A stretch of DNA of 64,000 nucleotides from Stentor roeselii (Eukaryota; Ciliophora; Heterotrichea; Heterotrichida; Stentoridae): positions 23,139 to 87,138 of the forward strand of contig RSEH01000209.1 of assembly GCA_006503475.1 (NCBI GenBank), in the 5' to 3' direction. Position numbers and translations under genes: made by a program. Position 1 is the stretch's first letter. Every line of letters starts with the position of its first letter. Of the stretch, positions 8,992-29,056 are shown in pieces. A model generated the notes under the pieces. That model worked only from the letters and a program-made list of their open reading frames with translations, did no database searches and had not been told where the DNA came from.

Positions 8992-9930
8992 CTAAACTGT
9001 GGAAAAGTGTTTTTCAGGATTTTCCAGCATTTCTCGGATACGGTTCTGGATCACGATTGCACGCATTCCATCGATGAAACGATGGTCAACATTGCAGCAG
9101 ATGTTGAGAACTTTCTCTACTACGACCTGCCCGTCAACGACAAGTGCCTCGTCATAAACAGAAGCGATGCAAAAAAGAGCAGGACATCGAAACAAAGGCA
9201 CAAGGGGAGGGTACCCGACTTTAACATTAAGCATTCCAACACTGGTCACTACAAATGCACCGAATTCATGTCTTTTCAAATTAAACATCGGCAAGGGGAT
9301 CCCCATGTTAGAAGAGATGAAACCTGAGACCTCAAAAATGATGGCAGTGATGCAGGTTGGTAGAAATTTAAAGATATTTGTTGATTTTTCTTTTAACTCT
9401 CTGTCCTTTCCACGTCTTAACGACTCAGCTTTTTTCTTGACTTCACTCGAAATGGCAGTCAAGTTTTTATTAGGAATGTCATTGATAGGAACGTAGTACA
9501 AGTCAACGCCGTCATCCATGCTAACAAGTAAAGTCCCATTAACACTCTTATGGTTGATATAATTTCCAAAAGCAATCTTCCCATTCACATCTGGAAAGTC
9601 CTTCATCACAGTTCCAATCGCCTTAAAGACCAGATGTGTCAAGGTAATATTTTCGCCTTTTTCCTTTGAAATTTTATCTAAAAAGTTAAGCGAATTTGCA
9701 ATCTTCACCTGAAAATATCCTAAAATATTAGGACGCACTGGGTCTGACCATGTCGCGATCTGTACTTTTCTCCTGATCGAATTGAACTTCGCAGCTGAAG
9801 AAGGGATCAACACCCAGCTCAAAATAAAGTAAATCGTCACAAAGAACAAGATAAAGTAAACCGGAGTCAAGTTGAACAAGAGAAAGTAAAGAATCCCGGC
9901 AAGAATACCACAAACGGCCAGTCCATTCAT
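8992..9930 (-). CDS. Membrane-anchored 2-oxoacid dehydrogenase-type acyltransferase domain protein
   Basis: The 312-residue product has two membrane spans in the first 45 residues, followed by the catalytic domain of E2 acyltransferases (chloramphenicol-acetyltransferase fold). Near the C-terminus, D-H-R-F-I-D-G supplies the HxxxDG catalytic motif, followed by the usual helix. An upstream segment resembles the fold's early helices. There is no lipoyl domain, no peripheral-subunit-binding domain and no obvious mitochondrial presequence, so it is unlikely to be the core of pyruvate dehydrogenase. It may be a membrane acyl-CoA-dependent transferase of unknown substrate. Its ATG overlaps the TGA of the upstream PROPPIN gene by four bases (ATGA). 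Confidence 0.8.
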   Translation of the reverse strand: MNGLAVCGILAGILYFLLFNLTPVYFILFFVTIYFILSWVLIPSSAAKFNSIRRKVQIATWSDPVRPNILGYFQVKIANSLNFLDKISKEKGENITLTHLVFKAIGTVMKDFPDVNGKIAFGNYINHKSVNGTLLVSMDDGVDLYYVPINDIPNKNLTAISSEVKKKAESLRRGKDRELKEKSTNIFKFLPTCITAIIFEVSGFISSNMGIPLPMFNLKRHEFGAFVVTSVGMLNVKVGYPPLVPLFRCPALFCIASVYDEALVVDGQVVVEKVLNICCNVDHRFIDGMRAIVIQNRIREMLENPEKHFSTV

Positions 9931-10952
9931 TTTTTAATATTACAAAAAGAAGTCAACTTCCCTGCTTGAATCACTCGACTTTCAAAAGTCTCGAAAGAAA
10001 GAATCAGAAAATCTGAGGAGTGACTCACGGCAAGGATTGAATCATTTTTACTGCTCAGGGTTGCAAGAAATCTTGAGGAAAAACCTGTTTTAAACGAAAA
10101 TATGCTTCGACTTGCCTCGAATCGGTCTTTTAAAGAATCTGAAAAAAAGTAAGTCGCTGCTGATGACAGGGTCTTTGAGACACTCCAGGTTGATGGTGAT
10201 GAAGAGTGTTGCAGTGAAAAAATGTGAAGACTTCCTGATGAACTTGTACAGACCAAGTAGTTGCTGTCGAAGGAAAAACGAAGGGAATAAGTTTGAGCCG
10301 GGTAAAGACCTCGTTTGAATGTGAAAAGTTTTTCACCTTCAGGAAGCGAAAAAACCCGAATTATTGTACCTTTAGTAGAGGAAGTAGCAAGAAGATTCCC
10401 TGAATAAGAAACTCCAACAACAGCTAAACTGGTACTATGAGCTTCAATCACTCCTCTCATCTCCATCGAAAAGCAATCACAGACCTGCACAGAGCCTTTT
10501 TCCAAACTTGCAGGAAACACCAAAAAGCAATTTTCAGAAGAAGGTGACAAATCCAAAACCTTATTCAAATTCTCAACAGTGCGAAAAACATGCTGAGTTT
10601 TCATGGTCGTAGTATTATAAACATAAATCGCATCAATAATAGCAACGACGATTCTTAATCGATTCATTCTGACAGCTAAAATCGTTTCAGGAAAAGAGGT
10701 CTCACAAATAGGCGCTCTTTCAGAAATATTCCAAATAGTCAGTCGTTTCGGAGAAAAAGCTGGATGTTCCCCCGACCCGACCAGAAGGAGCAGTTGAGTC
10801 ATTTCGTAGATTTCGACAATGCGGAAACCTGCTCTTTCGTCTTGGTTCAGAAGTTCAAAAGGCTCGATTTTAAAGACTGAGAAACCTGAAGCTGAACCTG
10901 TTGTTAGCAAAGTTGAGTCCTGGTTGAAGCTGACATGTTGCAAGTTTTCCAT
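9927..10952 (-). CDS. PROPPIN (Atg18/WIPI-like) WD-repeat phosphoinositide effector
   Basis: The 341-residue protein has weak WD-type blades throughout. It carries the PROPPIN signature: F-K-R-G in place of the usual F/L-R-R-G PI3P- and PI(3,5)P2-binding motif, followed by a blade reading L-R-F-S-F-D-S-N-Y-L and then S-G-S-L-H-I-F. Such proteins recruit autophagy machinery or act in endolysosomal recycling. The Arg-to-Lys change keeps charge but may weaken lipid binding. The gene ends in TGA inside the start codon of the next gene, and its own ATG is only 9 nt from the divergent golgin start. Confidence 0.88.
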   Translation of the reverse strand: MENLQHVSFNQDSTLLTTGSASGFSVFKIEPFELLNQDERAGFRIVEIYEMTQLLLLVGSGEHPAFSPKRLTIWNISERAPICETSFPETILAVRMNRLRIVVAIIDAIYVYNTTTMKTQHVFRTVENLNKVLDLSPSSENCFLVFPASLEKGSVQVCDCFSMEMRGVIEAHSTSLAVVGVSYSGNLLATSSTKGTIIRVFSLPEGEKLFTFKRGLYPAQTYSLRFSFDSNYLVCTSSSGSLHIFSLQHSSSPSTWSVSKTLSSAATYFFSDSLKDRFEASRSIFSFKTGFSSRFLATLSSKNDSILAVSHSSDFLILSFETFESRVIQAGKLTSFCNIKK

Positions 10953-15416: not shown

Positions 15417-16595
15417 ATGATGAGTCTTTTATTGTTACTAGTCCTTTGCAAGTCATTTCATTTAGACCACGACAAATTCATAAAAATTCCTCTAGAAAAG
15501 CGAGAGCTTGTTCAAACAAGTTCAAAAAAATCATTATCTCCTCTTCGTCACACAACGTACCCATCATTCATATCTTCGAAAAGCACAATTCTGCTAGAAG
15601 ATTATAACAACCAGCAATTCGTAGGTCAAGTAGGAATAGGAACTCCTCCTCAATACCTCTCAGTGATTTTTGACACAGGCAGTGGAAACTTCTTCTTGAA
15701 CTCGAATCTTTGCATGGCAAAATCATGTCTTTCCCGAGAGTCTTATGACCATGAGCAGAGTTCAACTTATTCTAGTCTTGAACTTGATCTTCAAGTCAGT
15801 TTTGGGTCAGGAGTGATGGAAGGCAATTTGTGTAATGACACTCTTACCATGGGAGGAGTGGAAATACCTTCACAGAACTTTGCTGAAGTTATTTATGAAG
15901 TCGGGTCAGTTTTTTATGGGGCGAAGTTCAGTGGAATCATGGGACTGGGATTTAGAAGCTTGGCTCATGAAAGTACTGTACCGGTTTTTGATAATATTAT
16001 ACAGTCTAAAATACTTGAGTGGAATGTTTTCGGATTTTATTACTGCTTGGATGAGAAAAAACACTCTGAGCTCATGATTGGGGATATTGATAATAGGAAG
16101 TTTACTGGGAAGATTCATTGGGTGCCAGTAACCCCAGACCCCTACTACTGGACAGTAATAATCGACGAAGTGCGTTTCGGTCACAAGAGCACAGGACTCT
16201 GCAAAGAAGGTTGCATGGTAGCAATAGACACAGGGACCACTTTAATGTTAGCTCCGTCTAAAGCCATAGACATTCTATACGATCACTTACCATCAGGTTG
16301 CAATTTCAAAAACATGCCAGACTTAGTCTTCATAATAAAAGGCAAGTCCTACAGTATCCCAGCGACATCCTACATGATAAGTGTTGAAAACGGAGTCGAA
16401 GAAGACCCAGGAGTCCACAACGAGAAAGTCCCGGACGACTGTGTATTCGCTTTCGGTTCTCTCGACATAGACCCTCCATTCGGTCCAGTCTGGGTATTCG
16501 GGAATATTTTCATGAACTCTTACTACGTCGCTTTTGACAGAGACAACCTTTCCGTTGGTTTCGGAAGGTCTGTGAACTGGCATGACTCAAACTAG
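15417..16595 (+). CDS. Pepsin-family aspartic protease (cathepsin D-like), secreted
   Basis: The 392-residue protein has a signal peptide, a propeptide of about 50 residues, and both catalytic motifs: F-D-T-G-S-G (Asp86) and A-I-D-T-G-T in the second lobe. The flap Tyr of pepsin appears as Phe (F-G-S-G), and the Trp that usually follows the first motif is also Phe. The C-terminus has the typical V-F-G-N-I-F-M ... Y-Y-V-A-F-D-R pattern. A lysosomal or food-vacuole digestive role is likely from family and context next to two secreted lipases. The end overlaps an upstream ATG of the next frame, but that gene probably starts 19 nt later. Confidence 0.92.
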   Translation: MMSLLLLLVLCKSFHLDHDKFIKIPLEKRELVQTSSKKSLSPLRHTTYPSFISSKSTILLEDYNNQQFVGQVGIGTPPQYLSVIFDTGSGNFFLNSNLCMAKSCLSRESYDHEQSSTYSSLELDLQVSFGSGVMEGNLCNDTLTMGGVEIPSQNFAEVIYEVGSVFYGAKFSGIMGLGFRSLAHESTVPVFDNIIQSKILEWNVFGFYYCLDEKKHSELMIGDIDNRKFTGKIHWVPVTPDPYYWTVIIDEVRFGHKSTGLCKEGCMVAIDTGTTLMLAPSKAIDILYDHLPSGCNFKNMPDLVFIIKGKSYSIPATSYMISVENGVEEDPGVHNEKVPDDCVFAFGSLDIDPPFGPVWVFGNIFMNSYYVAFDRDNLSVGFGRSVNWHDSN

Positions 16596-16614
16596 TGTAG
16601 AATATCTGAATAAT

Positions 16615-17967
16615 ATGGAAAGTGAACTCTGCTGCACGATTTGCAATTTAAAATACGAAGAACCTTCGAGAACACCACTGATGTTGCCCTGTGGACACAC
16701 TTTCTGTGCACACTGTCTTCAGACTTTGCTTAATTCCTCACAAGTGACCTGCCCGGAAGACCAGGAGCCTCTGAGTGTCTCGTCAGTCTCTGAACTTCCG
16801 AAGAACTTTTCTTTGATTCGCTTACTTAGCCGCTCATCGTCTAACCCAAATGTCTGCAAAGATCATAAAAAACGACTGGAGTTTATTTGCATGGTCGATA
16901 AAGCAAAGGTCTGTGGAACTTGCGCCTTGTTTGGGAAACATCGAGGACATGAAGTGAAACCTATTGAAGAAATCGTCTCAGATATCGCTAGTAAAGCGGA
17001 ATGTCTCATGGAAATGCTTCAGCTTGTTGAACAAAGCCAGGAAACTGTTATGAATGATAAGACCAAGGCGAGAATGGACAGACTGTATGAAAGGTATATC
17101 AAGAAAAAAAGTCAACTTGAAGGAGAAATTCGAGAAGGCTTTGAAAATTTAAGGAAAAGACTCAAGGAAATGGAACTTGAAGCACTTGAAAGTATTAATA
17201 ATAACTTCAAGGTTATTGAAAGTCACCTTGTCAATGTCAGGGATATTCCTAAGTTGATTGATAACTCAGCGAGTATTTGGATTGGCAAGGTTAAGGAAAA
17301 GTTGAATAAAGTCAGTCAACTCTCTGAAGATTTGAACTTCGACTCTTATGATTTACTTGGAAATGACTGTACTGACTTATTTCAAGCAGGGGAAAAAGTC
17401 CTTGTGGAACTTGACGGCTTGAAAGATATTCGCCTTGACCCTTATGAAGACATGATCACTACTTTTTTAGTTGACTTTAAAAAAGTTCTACCGAAAGATC
17501 TCTGCAAAATCAACTTCTCGAATAATGTCAGCAAAAATAATGATGAACCTGATGCTTCGAAAGGACTTAATGAAAAAATCTTTGAACAGACTTTAGATTC
17601 TCTTAAACAAAGAAATGTTCCTGAAGTCGACTTCTCGGCAGCTGGAGATCTTGGAGACCTAGCAGGCAAAATCGCTGCTTATTTACCAGAAAATGAAGTA
17701 CTTATCAGGTTAAAACTCGTAAAAAATAACATTTCTGACTCGGCAGCTGTTGATATTTTTAGAGCTCTTGCTGATAACTTTACCTTACAAGAGATTAATT
17801 TGAGTCAAAACTCTTTAAGTTCATCAGCTCTTGATGAACTTGTGGAAACTTTGAATATTAACACGACTCTTAAGGATATCAACTTGACAGGCAACCCGAA
17901 GATGACTGCTGAGTTTAAAGCGAAATTTGCTGGAATGACTTCTCGGTTTAGAAAAATTCATACTTAA
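16615..17967 (+). CDS. TRIM-like RING and B-box protein with leucine-rich C-terminus
   Basis: I chose the ATG at 16615 (450 residues) because the upstream in-frame ATG at 16582 lies inside the protease gene, and the chosen start has an AATAATATG context. The order is a C3HC4 RING (about 6-50), a B-box (C-K-D-H ... C ... C-x2-C ... H-x2-H), a long coiled coil, and a C-terminal segment of two or three leucine-rich repeats of the ribonuclease-inhibitor type. RING plus B-box plus coil is the tripartite arrangement of E3 ubiquitin ligases. The LRR end would be the substrate-binding part, replacing the B30.2 or NHL domains common elsewhere. Confidence 0.85.
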   Translation: MESELCCTICNLKYEEPSRTPLMLPCGHTFCAHCLQTLLNSSQVTCPEDQEPLSVSSVSELPKNFSLIRLLSRSSSNPNVCKDHKKRLEFICMVDKAKVCGTCALFGKHRGHEVKPIEEIVSDIASKAECLMEMLQLVEQSQETVMNDKTKARMDRLYERYIKKKSQLEGEIREGFENLRKRLKEMELEALESINNNFKVIESHLVNVRDIPKLIDNSASIWIGKVKEKLNKVSQLSEDLNFDSYDLLGNDCTDLFQAGEKVLVELDGLKDIRLDPYEDMITTFLVDFKKVLPKDLCKINFSNNVSKNNDEPDASKGLNEKIFEQTLDSLKQRNVPEVDFSAAGDLGDLAGKIAAYLPENEVLIRLKLVKNNISDSAAVDIFRALADNFTLQEINLSQNSLSSSALDELVETLNINTTLKDINLTGNPKMTAEFKAKFAGMTSRFRKIHT

Positions 17968-23344: not shown

Positions 23345-24058
23345 TCATTGGGAAAAAGAACCCGTTAGTCGTTTATCTACTCTTAAAAGTTCTTCAAGTC
23401 GATTGATTTCAGAGTTTTTCTCATGAATCCTTTTATCAGCGACTTCTTCTGCCTTCAATCTATTAGCTTGTTCATTTAAAATCTTATTACAAAGACAAGA
23501 AGCGAGACTTTTCCAGTCATTTTCATCTTTCTGAAGGACCTGCTCGACTGTTTCACTGACTTGAAGGTGATAAGCACGGGTCTTGGGAAATCTTTTCAAT
23601 GGAAAAGGTTTTAATGAGTCTGAAAGTTCTTTTGCACTTTTCGAGTACTTGTGAATAAAACCGCTGATTGATAAAATCTCAGATTTCAGCTGCTTCTCGT
23701 AACTTGTTGATAGTTTATTGTCTACAATAGATAAAGTCATTTCAGCGAGAAGGGTCTTCATTGCTTTGTTTGATTTGCTTAATTCTTCGATTTTTTTCTC
23801 TTTTCCTGCGATTTCTTCTGCTGATTTTTTCATTAAAGGGCTGCAGGAAAAGTCGGTCCTTGATTTTGTTTTGAACTTTTCTTGTTCTAGACCTGTTTGA
23901 AGGGTTTTTAACATTTTTGACTCTTTTTGAGAGTATTTCAGAAGGGTTTGTTCCTTGTGGTCTTCTAGGCATAGCAGCTGGGATAGAATGTCTTGAATTG
24001 TTGATTGTAATTTTTCTGGTGGTGAAATTTTGGGTTTTGAAGATTTTCGTAGCTTCAT
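23345..24058 (-). CDS. Coiled-coil protein of unknown function
   Basis: The 237-residue protein has a basic N-terminus, two predicted coiled-coil stretches (roughly 15-115 and 190-235) and no recognised domain. It ends in TGA 16 nt before the ATG of the EF-hand-like gene. Reading through that TGA reaches another stop about 20 codons on, so the two are separate genes. The short gap suggests a shared transcript or a promoter inside this gene. Confidence 0.7.
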   Translation of the reverse strand: MKLRKSSKPKISPPEKLQSTIQDILSQLLCLEDHKEQTLLKYSQKESKMLKTLQTGLEQEKFKTKSRTDFSCSPLMKKSAEEIAGKEKKIEELSKSNKAMKTLLAEMTLSIVDNKLSTSYEKQLKSEILSISGFIHKYSKSAKELSDSLKPFPLKRFPKTRAYHLQVSETVEQVLQKDENDWKSLASCLCNKILNEQANRLKAEEVADKRIHEKNSEINRLEELLRVDKRLTGSFSQ

Positions 24059-25397
24059 TTTTAGGATGATTTGGATAATGAGAGATTTTCTTGATTTAGT
24101 TGAAAATGGTGTTTTGGGCTTGGAAGTTGAATTTTTAGAATAGGATTAATAAAGTTTTAGAAATGGTTTTGGTTGAAGGTCTAGGGTTTATCATTTTTTA
24201 GGGTTTCTGTGATAATTGTAGTTTGATTAGGTGAATTGATTTAAAATAAAATAATTATGAGTGTTTTAATACACTTAATTCTTGTTAGTTGAATCAATTT
24301 AAACCATAATTAAAGGATCATTCTAAGTTTTTTATATATAAACTATGAAAAAACTTTAAGATTTACACAAAGATAAAGAGATTGTTTATTTATCTGAAAT
24401 CTTAAAAAAAATTAAATAGTATTTTAGGATTTACTCTGAGTATGAAGTCCATCAAATATTTATGTCAAATATTCTAGTTGTTATTGGTTCATTTTCATGA
24501 TGCTCGGAATATTTCTATAGTTACTGGTGGTTTTATTAAGTTGAAAACTCGTGCCATAATTTTTTATTTTAAGGCACATCAACACCTCGGAGTTCCAATT
24601 TTTACAGAAAATAATCTCTAAAAGGGTATTTTTCTATTATCTTTCTGTTAACCTGCAGAATTCAATGATTTTTTATTTCTCGTTTTTATTATGAATAATT
24701 TCTGAAAATAATGCTTTGGTCCCGATAGTAACTCAATAAAGTCTGGTGAAAACTTTGTTTTTTTTTAAGTTTATGCTACTTTTTACGTTTACTACGGTGA
24801 ATGTGAAGATCTTTTACATAGAAAAAAATGTGCTGATTCATTTAAAATCTTTAATAACTGTCTATAGTTTAGTCAAGTTAGTCTTTAATGTTATTCTTCC
24901 CTTAAATATAATTAAATTTTGATTTGAAAATCTTTACCTTCTTGATAAAGAAGCTGAATTTCATTTAAGGTTAGAGGAGTCTTCCACTTACTCTCAATTA
25001 ATTAATTAACTTAAATTTTACATCTTATTAATTAATACCTTAAAAATAATTGGAAAATTCTTAAATATTTAGTTTAAATTTACTCCTTGAGCCAGTTTTA
25101 ATTAGGTTTTCAAAACGAATCAAGTAAATGGCCAGCGAATAAACAGGATTTAATTTTTATGAATCCGAAATCTTAACTAGGGTTAGTTTCGACTCATGAA
25201 ACGTAAAAATATTTAAACTAGATTTGAAATTTTAGCTTAAACTCTTGGTTATCATCTCTTGAATAAATGCCAGGGACTAATTAAAAAATTAGAACTTTTT
25301 TGTTTTTTACTTTTTTGATCGGTTTAAGATTGTTTAAAACTTTTTATGTGTTTTGGGTTAATTTAAATTTACTGAAGTTTATGAACAGAGGAAAAAC
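24059..25397. other. AT-rich gene-poor island, left part
   Basis: No open frame of useful length on either strand. From 24345, a frame beginning ATG-A-A-A-A-A-A is protein-like for about 35 codons but contains TAA, TAG and TGA and then becomes random, so it may be another gene relic. Nothing else is recognised. Confidence 0.55.
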
Positions 25398-25403
25398 TCT
25401 AAG

Positions 25404-26700
25404 ATGAAAATCAGAATAATTAATATGAATATTAGGAAGATTAAGAGTGAAATTCAATAGATCAGGCCTGAACGAGAAATTTTTAAGCAAAAGATTTTTA
25501 TAGAACAATTAGAATCTAAAGGGAATTTCGAGCTACTCTAATTAAGACCTTCAGGAATGCTTATAATCTCATACCCAATTAAATCCATCGAAATCGAATG
25601 CATGAGAAAAGTTCTTATCTTTATAAGCGAAACAAGAAAATAACTTTTCTATCAGGTTTTTCTTCAAATCTATTATCATAGGAATTCATTATAATTTGAT
25701 AGCAATTTCAAAACTTGGAAATATTAATTTCTTTTGCGATTTTGAAGGCTACCTTGAATCCACTAGCTTCTCAAATGATGGGAAAATGGTTTCTTTTGGG
25801 TTATCCAAACAAATCTAAGATTATTCTTTATTTAAGACAATAAAGAATATTCATATATTCAATATCAAAACTAGGTTCTCAACTTGTTTCAGTAATTTCG
25901 GAAGACATTTGGCTTCAGGTTCTCTAGAGTTAATAATTTCTCTATGGAAACTTGAAGAAATATTCGAATATTACAAATTACTTGGCCATTAATCTGCAGT
26001 TAGGTATATGTGTTTTTCATTTGATGATGAATTACTAGCTTTTGGTTCATTTAATAGGATAATAAGGGTTTGAAGTGTGCAAGAGAGACTAATAAAATTT
26101 CATATAGATGAAAACGTATATTAAATTAGTTTTTTAACTAATCCAAATATAATTGATTCAGGATCATCTGATAGCACAATTATTATAATTAACAAAGCAT
26201 TTAATATTTTAATGGATTTGTGCTTCAAATATAAATCCAAGTAATCTGAGTTGTTTTCATGATCATTCAAGAAAATGATATAAAAGAGTAGTGAGAAAAA
26301 TAGGGAAGATTGAATGAATATGATAAAAAAGTTTTTAATACTATTCAATAACTGGAGGATTAAAATAATGTCATATCTAGTCCTTTGAATATTTTGTTGT
26401 GTAGCTATTCCTCTGACCATCGAGAGCGAATTAAGCATCAAATGGTATATAGGAATTAATTTTCAAATTTCTAAGTATGCTCCAAACAGACAGTATTGCA
26501 TCAACGATATTCCAAGTATTGAAGAAATATTTTTGTATTTAGATCTATAAAATTTCCTAAATAAATATCAAACAATAAGTTCTCCAGAATGGGAAAAAAT
26601 TTGTTTATTATATTTTTTAAAGACTAAAAAATATTGTGAAGCAAATTTACCTTATCCAGAATACTTATGTATCTTAATTACTCTACTAATAATCTTAAAT
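25404..26700 (+). pseudogene. Decayed WD-repeat protein gene with in-frame TAA and TGA
   Basis: From 25681 to 26700 one frame runs for 340 codons with no frameshift and only ten stops (six TAA, four TGA, no TAG), about a third of the number expected in DNA this AT-rich. The first half has clear WD-repeat patterns: F-S-N-D-G-K, F-G-R-H-L-A-S-G-S ... L-W-K-L, then G-H-stop-S-A-V ... I-I-R-V-stop-S-V, where the second stop is a TGA exactly at the motif Trp. A further repeat reads S-G-S-S-D-S-T-I. The second half is a polar region and two hydrophobic stretches. From 25404 to about 25650 another frame looks coding but is shifted, so the gene appears broken. It is a recent relic, or a gene read with a different code. 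Confidence 0.62.
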
Positions 26701-28498
26701 TGATGTTTTAGTAGTGATCTCATTTTTAAGTGAAATAATATTAATTTTTAGCAAAAAATCTTAATAATCCATTTAAATTATTTCTTAAAAATAACTATTC
26801 CCAGCTTTCAAAGTTAAAAGAAATCATGAACTCAAAAAATAATCAGTTTACTAATATCTGCTTTTCAATTAAATAACTACCTTCGATAATAAACACATTA
26901 AATTTAACAAATACTTTCAAAGACATTTTTAAAATGTCTATTAACAGTCCAGTTACCAGAAATTAAGCCTTGAAAAAAAAAACGAATTCTTAGTAATACA
27001 CAATTCTTTCGTCCATTAAAAGAATAAATAGAAATATTTTAAATTCATGCTTAGTCTATTAAGATGCCTATTCGTAATTTTTTGAAACTTTAATCTAAAA
27101 CAACTAGAATGTTAAATTTTCCAATAGCGTCCCTTAATCTAACTGAAAATCTAGATTTCAAAATTTTTAAAAGAAATTCAACTCTTTTAAACACTTGATA
27201 CAGTTTTCCATAGACTCATTAATGAGAAATTAAGTTAGTTGAATAATAATCTAGAGAGTATGAGGATATGTAATATATAGAATAAGTATATAAATTGACC
27301 TTCAAAGCCATTCAGGGTATATGGAAATATCTGCATATCTTCAATAAAATTATTTCGTTAGTATATCAAAAGAATAGTAAATTATTGAATGATTAGGAAT
27401 TCAAAATAATAGTAAATCAATTCATTATTAAGAATTTAAAAGAAAAGGATCTTTCTGTGCTGAATAAGCATCAAAATTATAGTAATTGTATCAATATTTC
27501 TAGAGACATATCAAAAGCTTAACAGGTATCGTATAAGTGCTATTATTTTGTTGATTTATTTAGATTTAAAGAAGAATTTCTGTTTCAGGTAATTGTTATG
27601 TGTTTATTCAGTAAAATATACAAGAGGTGGAAAATTCGATGACACTTAAAGAATAATTTTGATGAAATGAAAGAGAAACAGTATTTTTATTAGCATGGCC
27701 ACAGATAATGAAAAAGCTATTAGCATACTGTTTCAATTTTAAAGCATTTGTTGACTGAGAATTAAATTATTATACTGGGTGAAATTATTATTTAACCAGG
27801 AAAATTTTATAAATATTTAACGAATAATCATGGTTTGTTATCAGATATCAAACTTTTTAAGAAGCTTCAGTTTTTTAATTTTTTTTTATTTGGATTTGAT
27901 ATTTCTATATTTCAAAAGATTTACGATTGCATGGCTTATAGCTGATATTAAAAGTAAAATTTGAGATGATTTTTTAGATAGATTGAGATAATTTTTAATA
28001 TTTAATGAGAATAAAAATCTACAACAAGGTGTTAGATTATTATCCTAAATATCAGATAGGTAGTATTTATTACTGTAGAAATTCAATTTAGAGCACGAAA
28101 ACTATAATTTACCTTATCGTGAAAGTATTTATTCAAGAATATAACTAATCTAAACATTAAGATAATTTATTTCATTTCTAAATATAACTTTAACCCAAAT
28201 ATCTACTTATATAATTTATGAAAATTATAATCATTCTATAATTAAGTCAAACAGATTATTTCTAATAATTATAACATCAATACTAAGATAATATTTTTGT
28301 AAGAATCATAATAAAAATACTAACCTTACATAAAATCCTCATATCTTAAAGCTCTATAAAAACCTTTCAATAAAATAAAAATATTAAAATATCCAAAACA
28401 AAATCTTAAACTCTTCTCAACCAAAACTATAAAATTCCAGATCCACTTCAAAATCCATTCAAGAGCTCATCACATCTAAATTCTGTTGACCCATATAA
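26701..28498. other. AT-rich gene-poor island, right part
   Basis: No open frame under the standard code. Frames starting near 26770 and 27319 look protein-like when stops are read as Gln or Trp. However, their stop density is close to random for this base composition and they carry no motif I recognise, so I give them no function. The last 250 bases form the upstream region of ARL8. Confidence 0.55.
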
Positions 28499-29056
28499 AT
28501 GTTTAAAAAATTCGTCAACTGGTTCCAGTCAATCTTCTGGAACCAAAACCTTCAACTATCAGTTCTCGGTCTTCAAAATGCAGGAAAATCCACTTTTATA
28601 AACGTTCTGACAGGTAATGAGTTCAGCGAAGATACAATCCCGACAATAGGTTTCAACGAAAGACACATAAACAAAGGTCGAGTTCATTTTCAGCTTTGGG
28701 ATTTAGGAGGTGACCAAAAGTTCCGAAATATGTGGGAAAGGTTTTCTAGAGACGTTGATTGCATCATCTTTGTTGTAGATTCTGCCGACTTTAGGCAACT
28801 TGACAACTCAAAAGCTGAACTGCATCGATTATTAGCCTGGCCTTCTTTGAAAAATACTACTTTGCTTGTCCTTGGGAATAAAAACGATTTGGAAGGCGCT
28901 TTAAGTGAAGAAGAATTAATCAATGCACTTGACCTGCAGTCGATTAAAGGAAGAGATGTGGCTTGTTACTCGGTAAGCTCGAAGAGACAGACTAATATTG
29001 ATACGGTTTTAAACTATCTCAGTAGTTTGAGGAATAAAAGAAAAGGTAAAGCTTAG
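28499..29056 (+). CDS. ARL8-type small GTPase
   Basis: The 185-residue protein matches ARL8 in length, in its N-terminal amphipathic helix ending W-F-Q-S-I-F-W, and in the G1 loop G-L-Q-N-A-G-K-S. It also has the switch segment S-E-D-T-I-P-T-I-G-F, the G4 motif N-K-N-D, and the late C-Y-S-V-S-S motif. ARL8 links lysosomes and related organelles to kinesins and tethering complexes. The catalytic Gln after W-D-L-G-G is replaced by Asp (G-G-D-Q), which may slow GTP hydrolysis or shift the catalytic residue by one. There is no myristoylation site, as expected for ARL8. The start is ATATAAATG. Confidence 0.9.
   Translation: MFKKFVNWFQSIFWNQNLQLSVLGLQNAGKSTFINVLTGNEFSEDTIPTIGFNERHINKGRVHFQLWDLGGDQKFRNMWERFSRDVDCIIFVVDSADFRQLDNSKAELHRLLAWPSLKNTTLLVLGNKNDLEGALSEEELINALDLQSIKGRDVACYSVSSKRQTNIDTVLNYLSSLRNKRKGKA

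Follow-up and report, generated by a model that had tools for sequence, protein, structure and literature searches.

Two decayed gene relics lie side by side in the window, the stretch of 64,000 nucleotides of Stentor roeselii DNA that was analyzed here (Table 1). Both sit in a 4,439-base gap (24060-28498) with a GC content of 0.247 and without any open reading frame (ORF) of at least 150 amino acids, between an ORF on the minus strand (23345..24058) and an Arf-family GTPase gene on the plus strand (28499..29056); the genes around it are closely packed. With the second relic adjoining the first, much of this gap consists of dead genes. Near its two ends (28065-28296 and 24215-24472), weak DNA matches of 60-61% identity to sequence downstream of a channel gene on contig C427 may be further remnants or AT-rich chance similarity. 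Elsewhere in the window, same-strand ORFs overlap by 4 bases within 8992-10952 (9927-9930) and by 14 bases within 15417-17967 (16582-16595); in both places the mechanical assignment may have misplaced the starts, or the genes may be packed extremely tightly. Rfam and ARAGORN searches of the window returned no matches. The assembly comprises 44.4 Mb in 522 contigs, and repeats of GTGTTAGG were present at three of the seven contig ends or starts printed.

Table 1. Features of the two relics, in window coordinates
Feature	Position	Strand	Basis and remarks
Unrelated second relic, from the C-terminal end of a gene in the kelch/transmembrane-type family	24435..25515	+	Many stops and frameshifts
Decayed WD-repeat part	25597..26193	+	Paralogue residues ~1054-1253; tblastn, DNA comparison, frameshift-aware alignment
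Out-of-frame stretch between two shifts, holding TAA 25833 and TAG 25872	25810..25878	+	Frameshift-aware alignment
TAA, mostly a Gln site	25990..25992	+	Gln in L031-L034 (4/7); Lys in L029, Glu in L035, Asn in L038
TGA on a WD-repeat Trp	26071..26073	+	Trp in 7/7 paralogues aligned; 4/4 frameshift-aware alignments
TAA at a Ser site	26122..26124	+	4/4 alignments
Inverted part of the channel region	26207..26794	-	Paralogue residues ~1754-1906; tblastn, blastn, frameshift-aware alignment
C-terminal codons of the channel gene, SQLSKLKEIMNSKN vs SQLSKLLEIMNSKN	26797..26838	+	Alignment to one paralogue, L033
3' flank of the channel gene	26839..27120	+	DNA comparison

The first relic has close relatives elsewhere in the same genome. 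When the genome was searched with the translation of a low-stop frame across the relic, with X at the stops, long open frames turned up at six other places, 53-57% identical across as many as 214 residues and lying in ORFs of 1,110 to 2,104 aa. Two long paralogues that were scanned contain 27 and 28 WD40 stretches. In the C-terminal parts of two paralogues, Pfam detected ankyrin above its cut-off in one (locus L031) and a channel family in neither, and phmmer comparison of the L031 C-terminal part with the PDB gave a weak match to TRPV3 (E 0.0047), for which reasons "TRP-like" and "channel" are used as weak labels only. A single ORF of about 2,100 aa that joins about 27-28 WD40 repeats to ankyrin repeats and to a channel part of weak TRP likeness is found at L031:1451-7699 (minus strand), L032, L033, L034 and L038. 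The L031 channel part as query had 131 matches in the genome, five of them with in-frame stops (contigs C80, C31, C374, C288 and C239). Among the papers listed in literature searches, none describes this relic or a WD40-TRP fusion in ciliates.

By tblastn the forward, WD-repeat piece, matched from 25612 to 26193, was 51-54% identical to six paralogue ORFs and 40% identical to L038, and its DNA identity was 77-78% to L029 and L031-L034, 74-75% to L035 and L036, and 64% to L038. Frameshift-aware alignments to four paralogues, reliable for this piece from 25625, agreed in all four cases that one base was lost near 25810 and that a second shift, at 25872 or 25878, restored the frame; upstream of about 25700 the placement of further shifts differs among the four. 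In the gene's own frame TAA 25833 falls on a Gln site in all four alignments, and TAG 25872 on a Gln site in three, the fourth placing the shift there. The site of TAA 25990 is Gln in all four of these paralogues, and TAA 25624 lies at a Glu site in three of the four alignments.

The next piece of the same gene is inverted. By tblastn, 26592 down to 26223 matches the channel region of the paralogues (residues ~1770-1900) on the minus strand, split between two frames. Most paralogues give minus-strand blastn matches as far as 26592, while L033 extends them to 26633 and L035 alone to 26794. Alignment to the four paralogues located frameshifts at about 26454 and 26443, together with a TAG at a Trp site (26559), a TAG at a Gln site (26547) and a TAA at an Asn/Ser/Lys site (26541), each in all four alignments; stops at 26607, 26610 and 26619 were found in three of the four and are less securely aligned. 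Homology of the inverted piece is based on local comparisons, whose E-values refer to small databases, and on antisense matches to L019 and L020; the piece was absent from the matches listed in the genome-wide protein search with the L031 channel region. Forward sequence resumes immediately beyond it, where the tail and 3' flank (26797-27120) are 69-77% identical in DNA to eight of the 11 loci compared. Protein matching, DNA comparison and alignment thus agree on an order of forward, inverted and forward pieces with large deletions between them. About 280 bases beyond the last codons match paralogue 3' flanks, which would speak against a processed pseudogene, depending on how far the mRNA tail reaches.

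This anatomy accounts for a frame to which an earlier note on this DNA had drawn attention. Between 25630 and 26700 this frame (25405+3k) comprises 357 codons, of which 10 are stops, six TAA and four TGA with no TAG, and the note's estimate that about 30 would be expected was borne out: a first-order Markov model of the gap gave 30.7 +/- 5.3, with a minimum of 15 in 2,000 simulations, and the best of three frames under the segment's own model had a minimum of 11 (n=500 simulations). The note had read it as one coherent frame of 340 codons. The low stop count and the WD-like motifs are real, as are a TGA on the Trp of a WD motif (26071) and a TAA after Gly-His in another repeat (25990), both as described. 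The frame nevertheless spans pieces on opposite strands and is not one coding frame, sense-strand coding being confined to 25597-26193, which is itself broken by two compensating frameshifts. Only three of its ten stops (25990, 26071 and 26122) belong to the gene; TAA 25816 is out of the gene's frame, inside the shifted stretch, and six are antisense to the inverted piece. That all stops were TAA or TGA holds for the frame as read and results from the wrong frame having been followed, since the gene's own frame has TAG at 25872, 26559 and 26547.

Because the inverted piece was coded on the minus strand, the plus-strand frame across 26207-26794 is antisense, and its openness across 26223-26592 is within chance, its 123 codons holding 6 stops where 10.4 would be expected (P 0.10). 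Over 26223-26441, where the frame has 5 stops in 72 codons, it follows an antisense register in which six paralogue ORFs are likewise poor in stops, with 3-6 stops against 11-17 in the two other registers (113-130 codons). Over 26455-26592 it follows a different antisense register, with 1 stop in 46 codons.

Constraint on the relic is relaxed, its changes being spread across codon positions. At columns where the compared paralogues agree, and with columns dropped where the relic has a gap, where fewer than five paralogues are present or where paralogues are out of phase, the change rates at codon positions 1, 2 and 3 were 0.161, 0.094 and 0.105 in the forward piece and 0.187, 0.078 and 0.159 in the inverted piece, the second position being changed least in both. 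The forward reference set of six ORFs is not purely intact, as L029 on contig C80 has a TAG in its channel part and L035 is cut by a contig start. With the pieces pooled, third positions accounted for 22 of 80 changes in the relic and 68 of 152 paralogue singletons (Fisher P 0.011); by piece, this deficit was not significant for the forward part (P 0.13) and had P 0.029 for the inverted part.

Other members of the family have also decayed. At L036 (C403:12299-15335) two shifts, a TGA and a TAG at Trp sites, and TAA at Ser and Lys sites were found, and in L037 (C175:66137-67578) there are six shifts, stretches of inserted sequence and numerous TAA, TAG and TGA stops. The C403 copy is much less decayed, and the printed end of both contigs is telomere repeat. 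The coding-like piece upstream in another frame, which the earlier note had taken to favor a pseudogene, belongs to the second dead gene at 24435-25515. This relic is 65-66% identical in DNA to L048 on contig C325, whose ORF contains Kelch domains, and its translation aligns with the C-terminus of the kelch-domain protein there; "transmembrane" in the name of the family is our reading of the sequence. The kelch-type family matched 103 places in the genome, of which 100 had no internal stop. The three with stops were one copy on C262 (one TAA) and two overlapping matches to the window relic.

Several Gln and Trp sites of the WD-channel relic do carry TAA, TAG or TGA, as they would if the gene were alive and translated with a Condylostoma-like code (UAA/UAG as Gln, UGA as Trp) in a genome otherwise using the standard code. 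To that extent the relic resembles Condylostoma magnum, in whose nuclear code all three stops are sense according to excerpts of PMC4967479. The resemblance ends there, and with it goes virtually all of the probability of a recoded gene. A Condylostoma-type gene would have a continuous frame. Here frame-breaking indels, which the earlier note had named together with lack of expression as evidence against a living recoded gene, stand at matching places, give or take a few bases, in four of four paralogue alignments of each coding piece, and there is the inverted segment in addition. Stops of that type would be confined to Gln sites (TAR) and Trp sites (TGA), whereas the relic also has a TAG at Trp 26559 and TAA at Ser 26122, Glu 25624 and Asn/Ser/Lys 26541. 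The paralogues spell these residues in the standard way: their seven ORFs contain 281 CAA and 80 CAG (361 Gln codons), 268 TGG and no in-frame stop, ORFs being by definition stop-free until their end. The seven end in TAA or TAG, the end on C80 being the TAG in the channel part. Suppressor tRNAs, which had been proposed as a check, were not found either, with no anticodon tta, cta or tca among the 60 tRNA genes read of 63 found, an incomplete set that lacks Leu, Glu, Tyr, Pro and His; the Gln anticodons read were ttg and ctg, and that of Trp was cca. Anticodon-arm patterns matched 10 times for Gln (8 for the reversed-pattern control) and 27 times for Trp, above its control of 10. Two of the Gln matches and one of the Trp matches are known tRNA genes, and none of the 34 others (8 Gln and 26 Trp) was called a tRNA by ARAGORN.

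The wider window and related genomes bear on the same question. Thirty window ORFs end in TAA (13), TAG (12) or TGA (5), and the five ending in TGA have another in-frame stop 0-19 codons later. As a probe for a genome-wide reading of TGA as Trp, of the kind used by Blepharisma, window frames split solely by a TGA flanked on both sides by over 60 open codons were sought. Four places were listed (61865, 57751, 12583 and 41283), each of which, by its coordinates, is covered by a longer listed ORF that runs in a different frame or on the opposite strand. For Blepharisma stoltei, extracts of PMC9942806 give UGA as Trp, a genome of 41 Mbp, CCCTAACA telomeres and introns of 15-16 bp; the genome here is similar in size and has the same telomere unit in permuted form, but differs in the absence of TGA within the seven paralogue ORFs, against 268 TGG, and in the 5 of 30 window ORFs that end in TGA. 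Stentor coeruleus, with a standard code and introns of 15-16 nt according to PMC9505925, is similar in its dense genes and standard code; the assembly here amounts to 44.4 Mb. Two further explanations concern the DNA rather than the code. A chimeric assembly, or contamination by DNA of a different ciliate with a variant code, would have nothing but AT content to recommend it and is highly improbable, both relics having family members in the assembly and the first having close relatives there (53-57% in protein at the six best other places, up to 78% in DNA). Somewhat less improbable, though still unlikely, is that the AT-rich 4.4 kb around the two relics represents a germline-limited, IES-like segment that stayed in the assembly, the decay having taken place in DNA normally removed from the somatic nucleus. 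Ciliates do have such segments, as extracts of PMC9942806 describe, and the low GC and lack of longer ORFs amid closely packed genes would suit one; long neutral decay could also give the low GC, and such an origin would leave the verdict of a dead gene unchanged.

The locus is almost certainly a dead, decayed and rearranged duplicate of a WD40-ankyrin-TRP-like channel gene. It is homologous to paralogues with long open frames, and its own frame is broken by stops and by indels of non-triplet length, both as expected of a pseudogene. The earlier note had already favored a pseudogene, and was right in kind and wrong in anatomy. Its proposal that CAA and TGG codons decayed by C-to-T or G-to-A changes is right in kind for four stops, three that replace CAA or CAG in the paralogues by TAA or TAG (25833, 25872 and 25990) and one that replaces TGG by TGA (26071); other stops, listed above, fall on Ser, Glu and Asn/Ser/Lys sites and, as TAG, on Trp. 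The history may have begun with duplication of a channel-gene copy and its 3' flank into this locus, or with a formerly live gene there; the duplication would have been at the DNA level, because the 3' flank is homologous as well. In its present state the copy is missing the first ~1,050 codons and, within the gene, two stretches of ~500 and ~180 codons; an internal segment is inverted, and point stops and small frame-breaking indels have accumulated, although the order of these events is a reconstruction. Judging from its sequence, the relic would yield no protein of the ancestral kind and is presumably not expressed. In having paralogues in the same genome, flanking DNA, stops, frameshifts, deletions and an inversion, it resembles a duplicated (non-processed) pseudogene, and it is unlike a typical one only in the detail that the inversion makes the wrong strand seem to continue the open frame.

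A frame with few stops, and with those stops on Gln and Trp sites, can therefore arise from an ordinary pseudogene, since C-to-T and G-to-A decay creates such stops and an antisense register of a coding piece can be stop-poor as well; a false lead toward recoding is thereby removed. Looking for an inversion, and for TAG in the frame guided by paralogues, is a fast safeguard before local recoding is claimed. Of 10 close relatives in the family that are located outside the window, nine are no more than 17 kb from a contig end, a count that includes two contigs only 14-17 kb long and ends that may be assembly breaks. It is possible, though rather unlikely, that the relic is a long-dead inland copy from a large WD40-ankyrin-TRP-like channel family, the closest members of which are grouped near the ends of contigs and have been duplicated, rearranged and killed there again and again, in a birth-and-death turnover at somatic chromosome ends. 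If that were true, the decay series formed by the C403 copy, the C175 copy and the window relic would serve as a clock for turnover of the channel family at chromosome ends.
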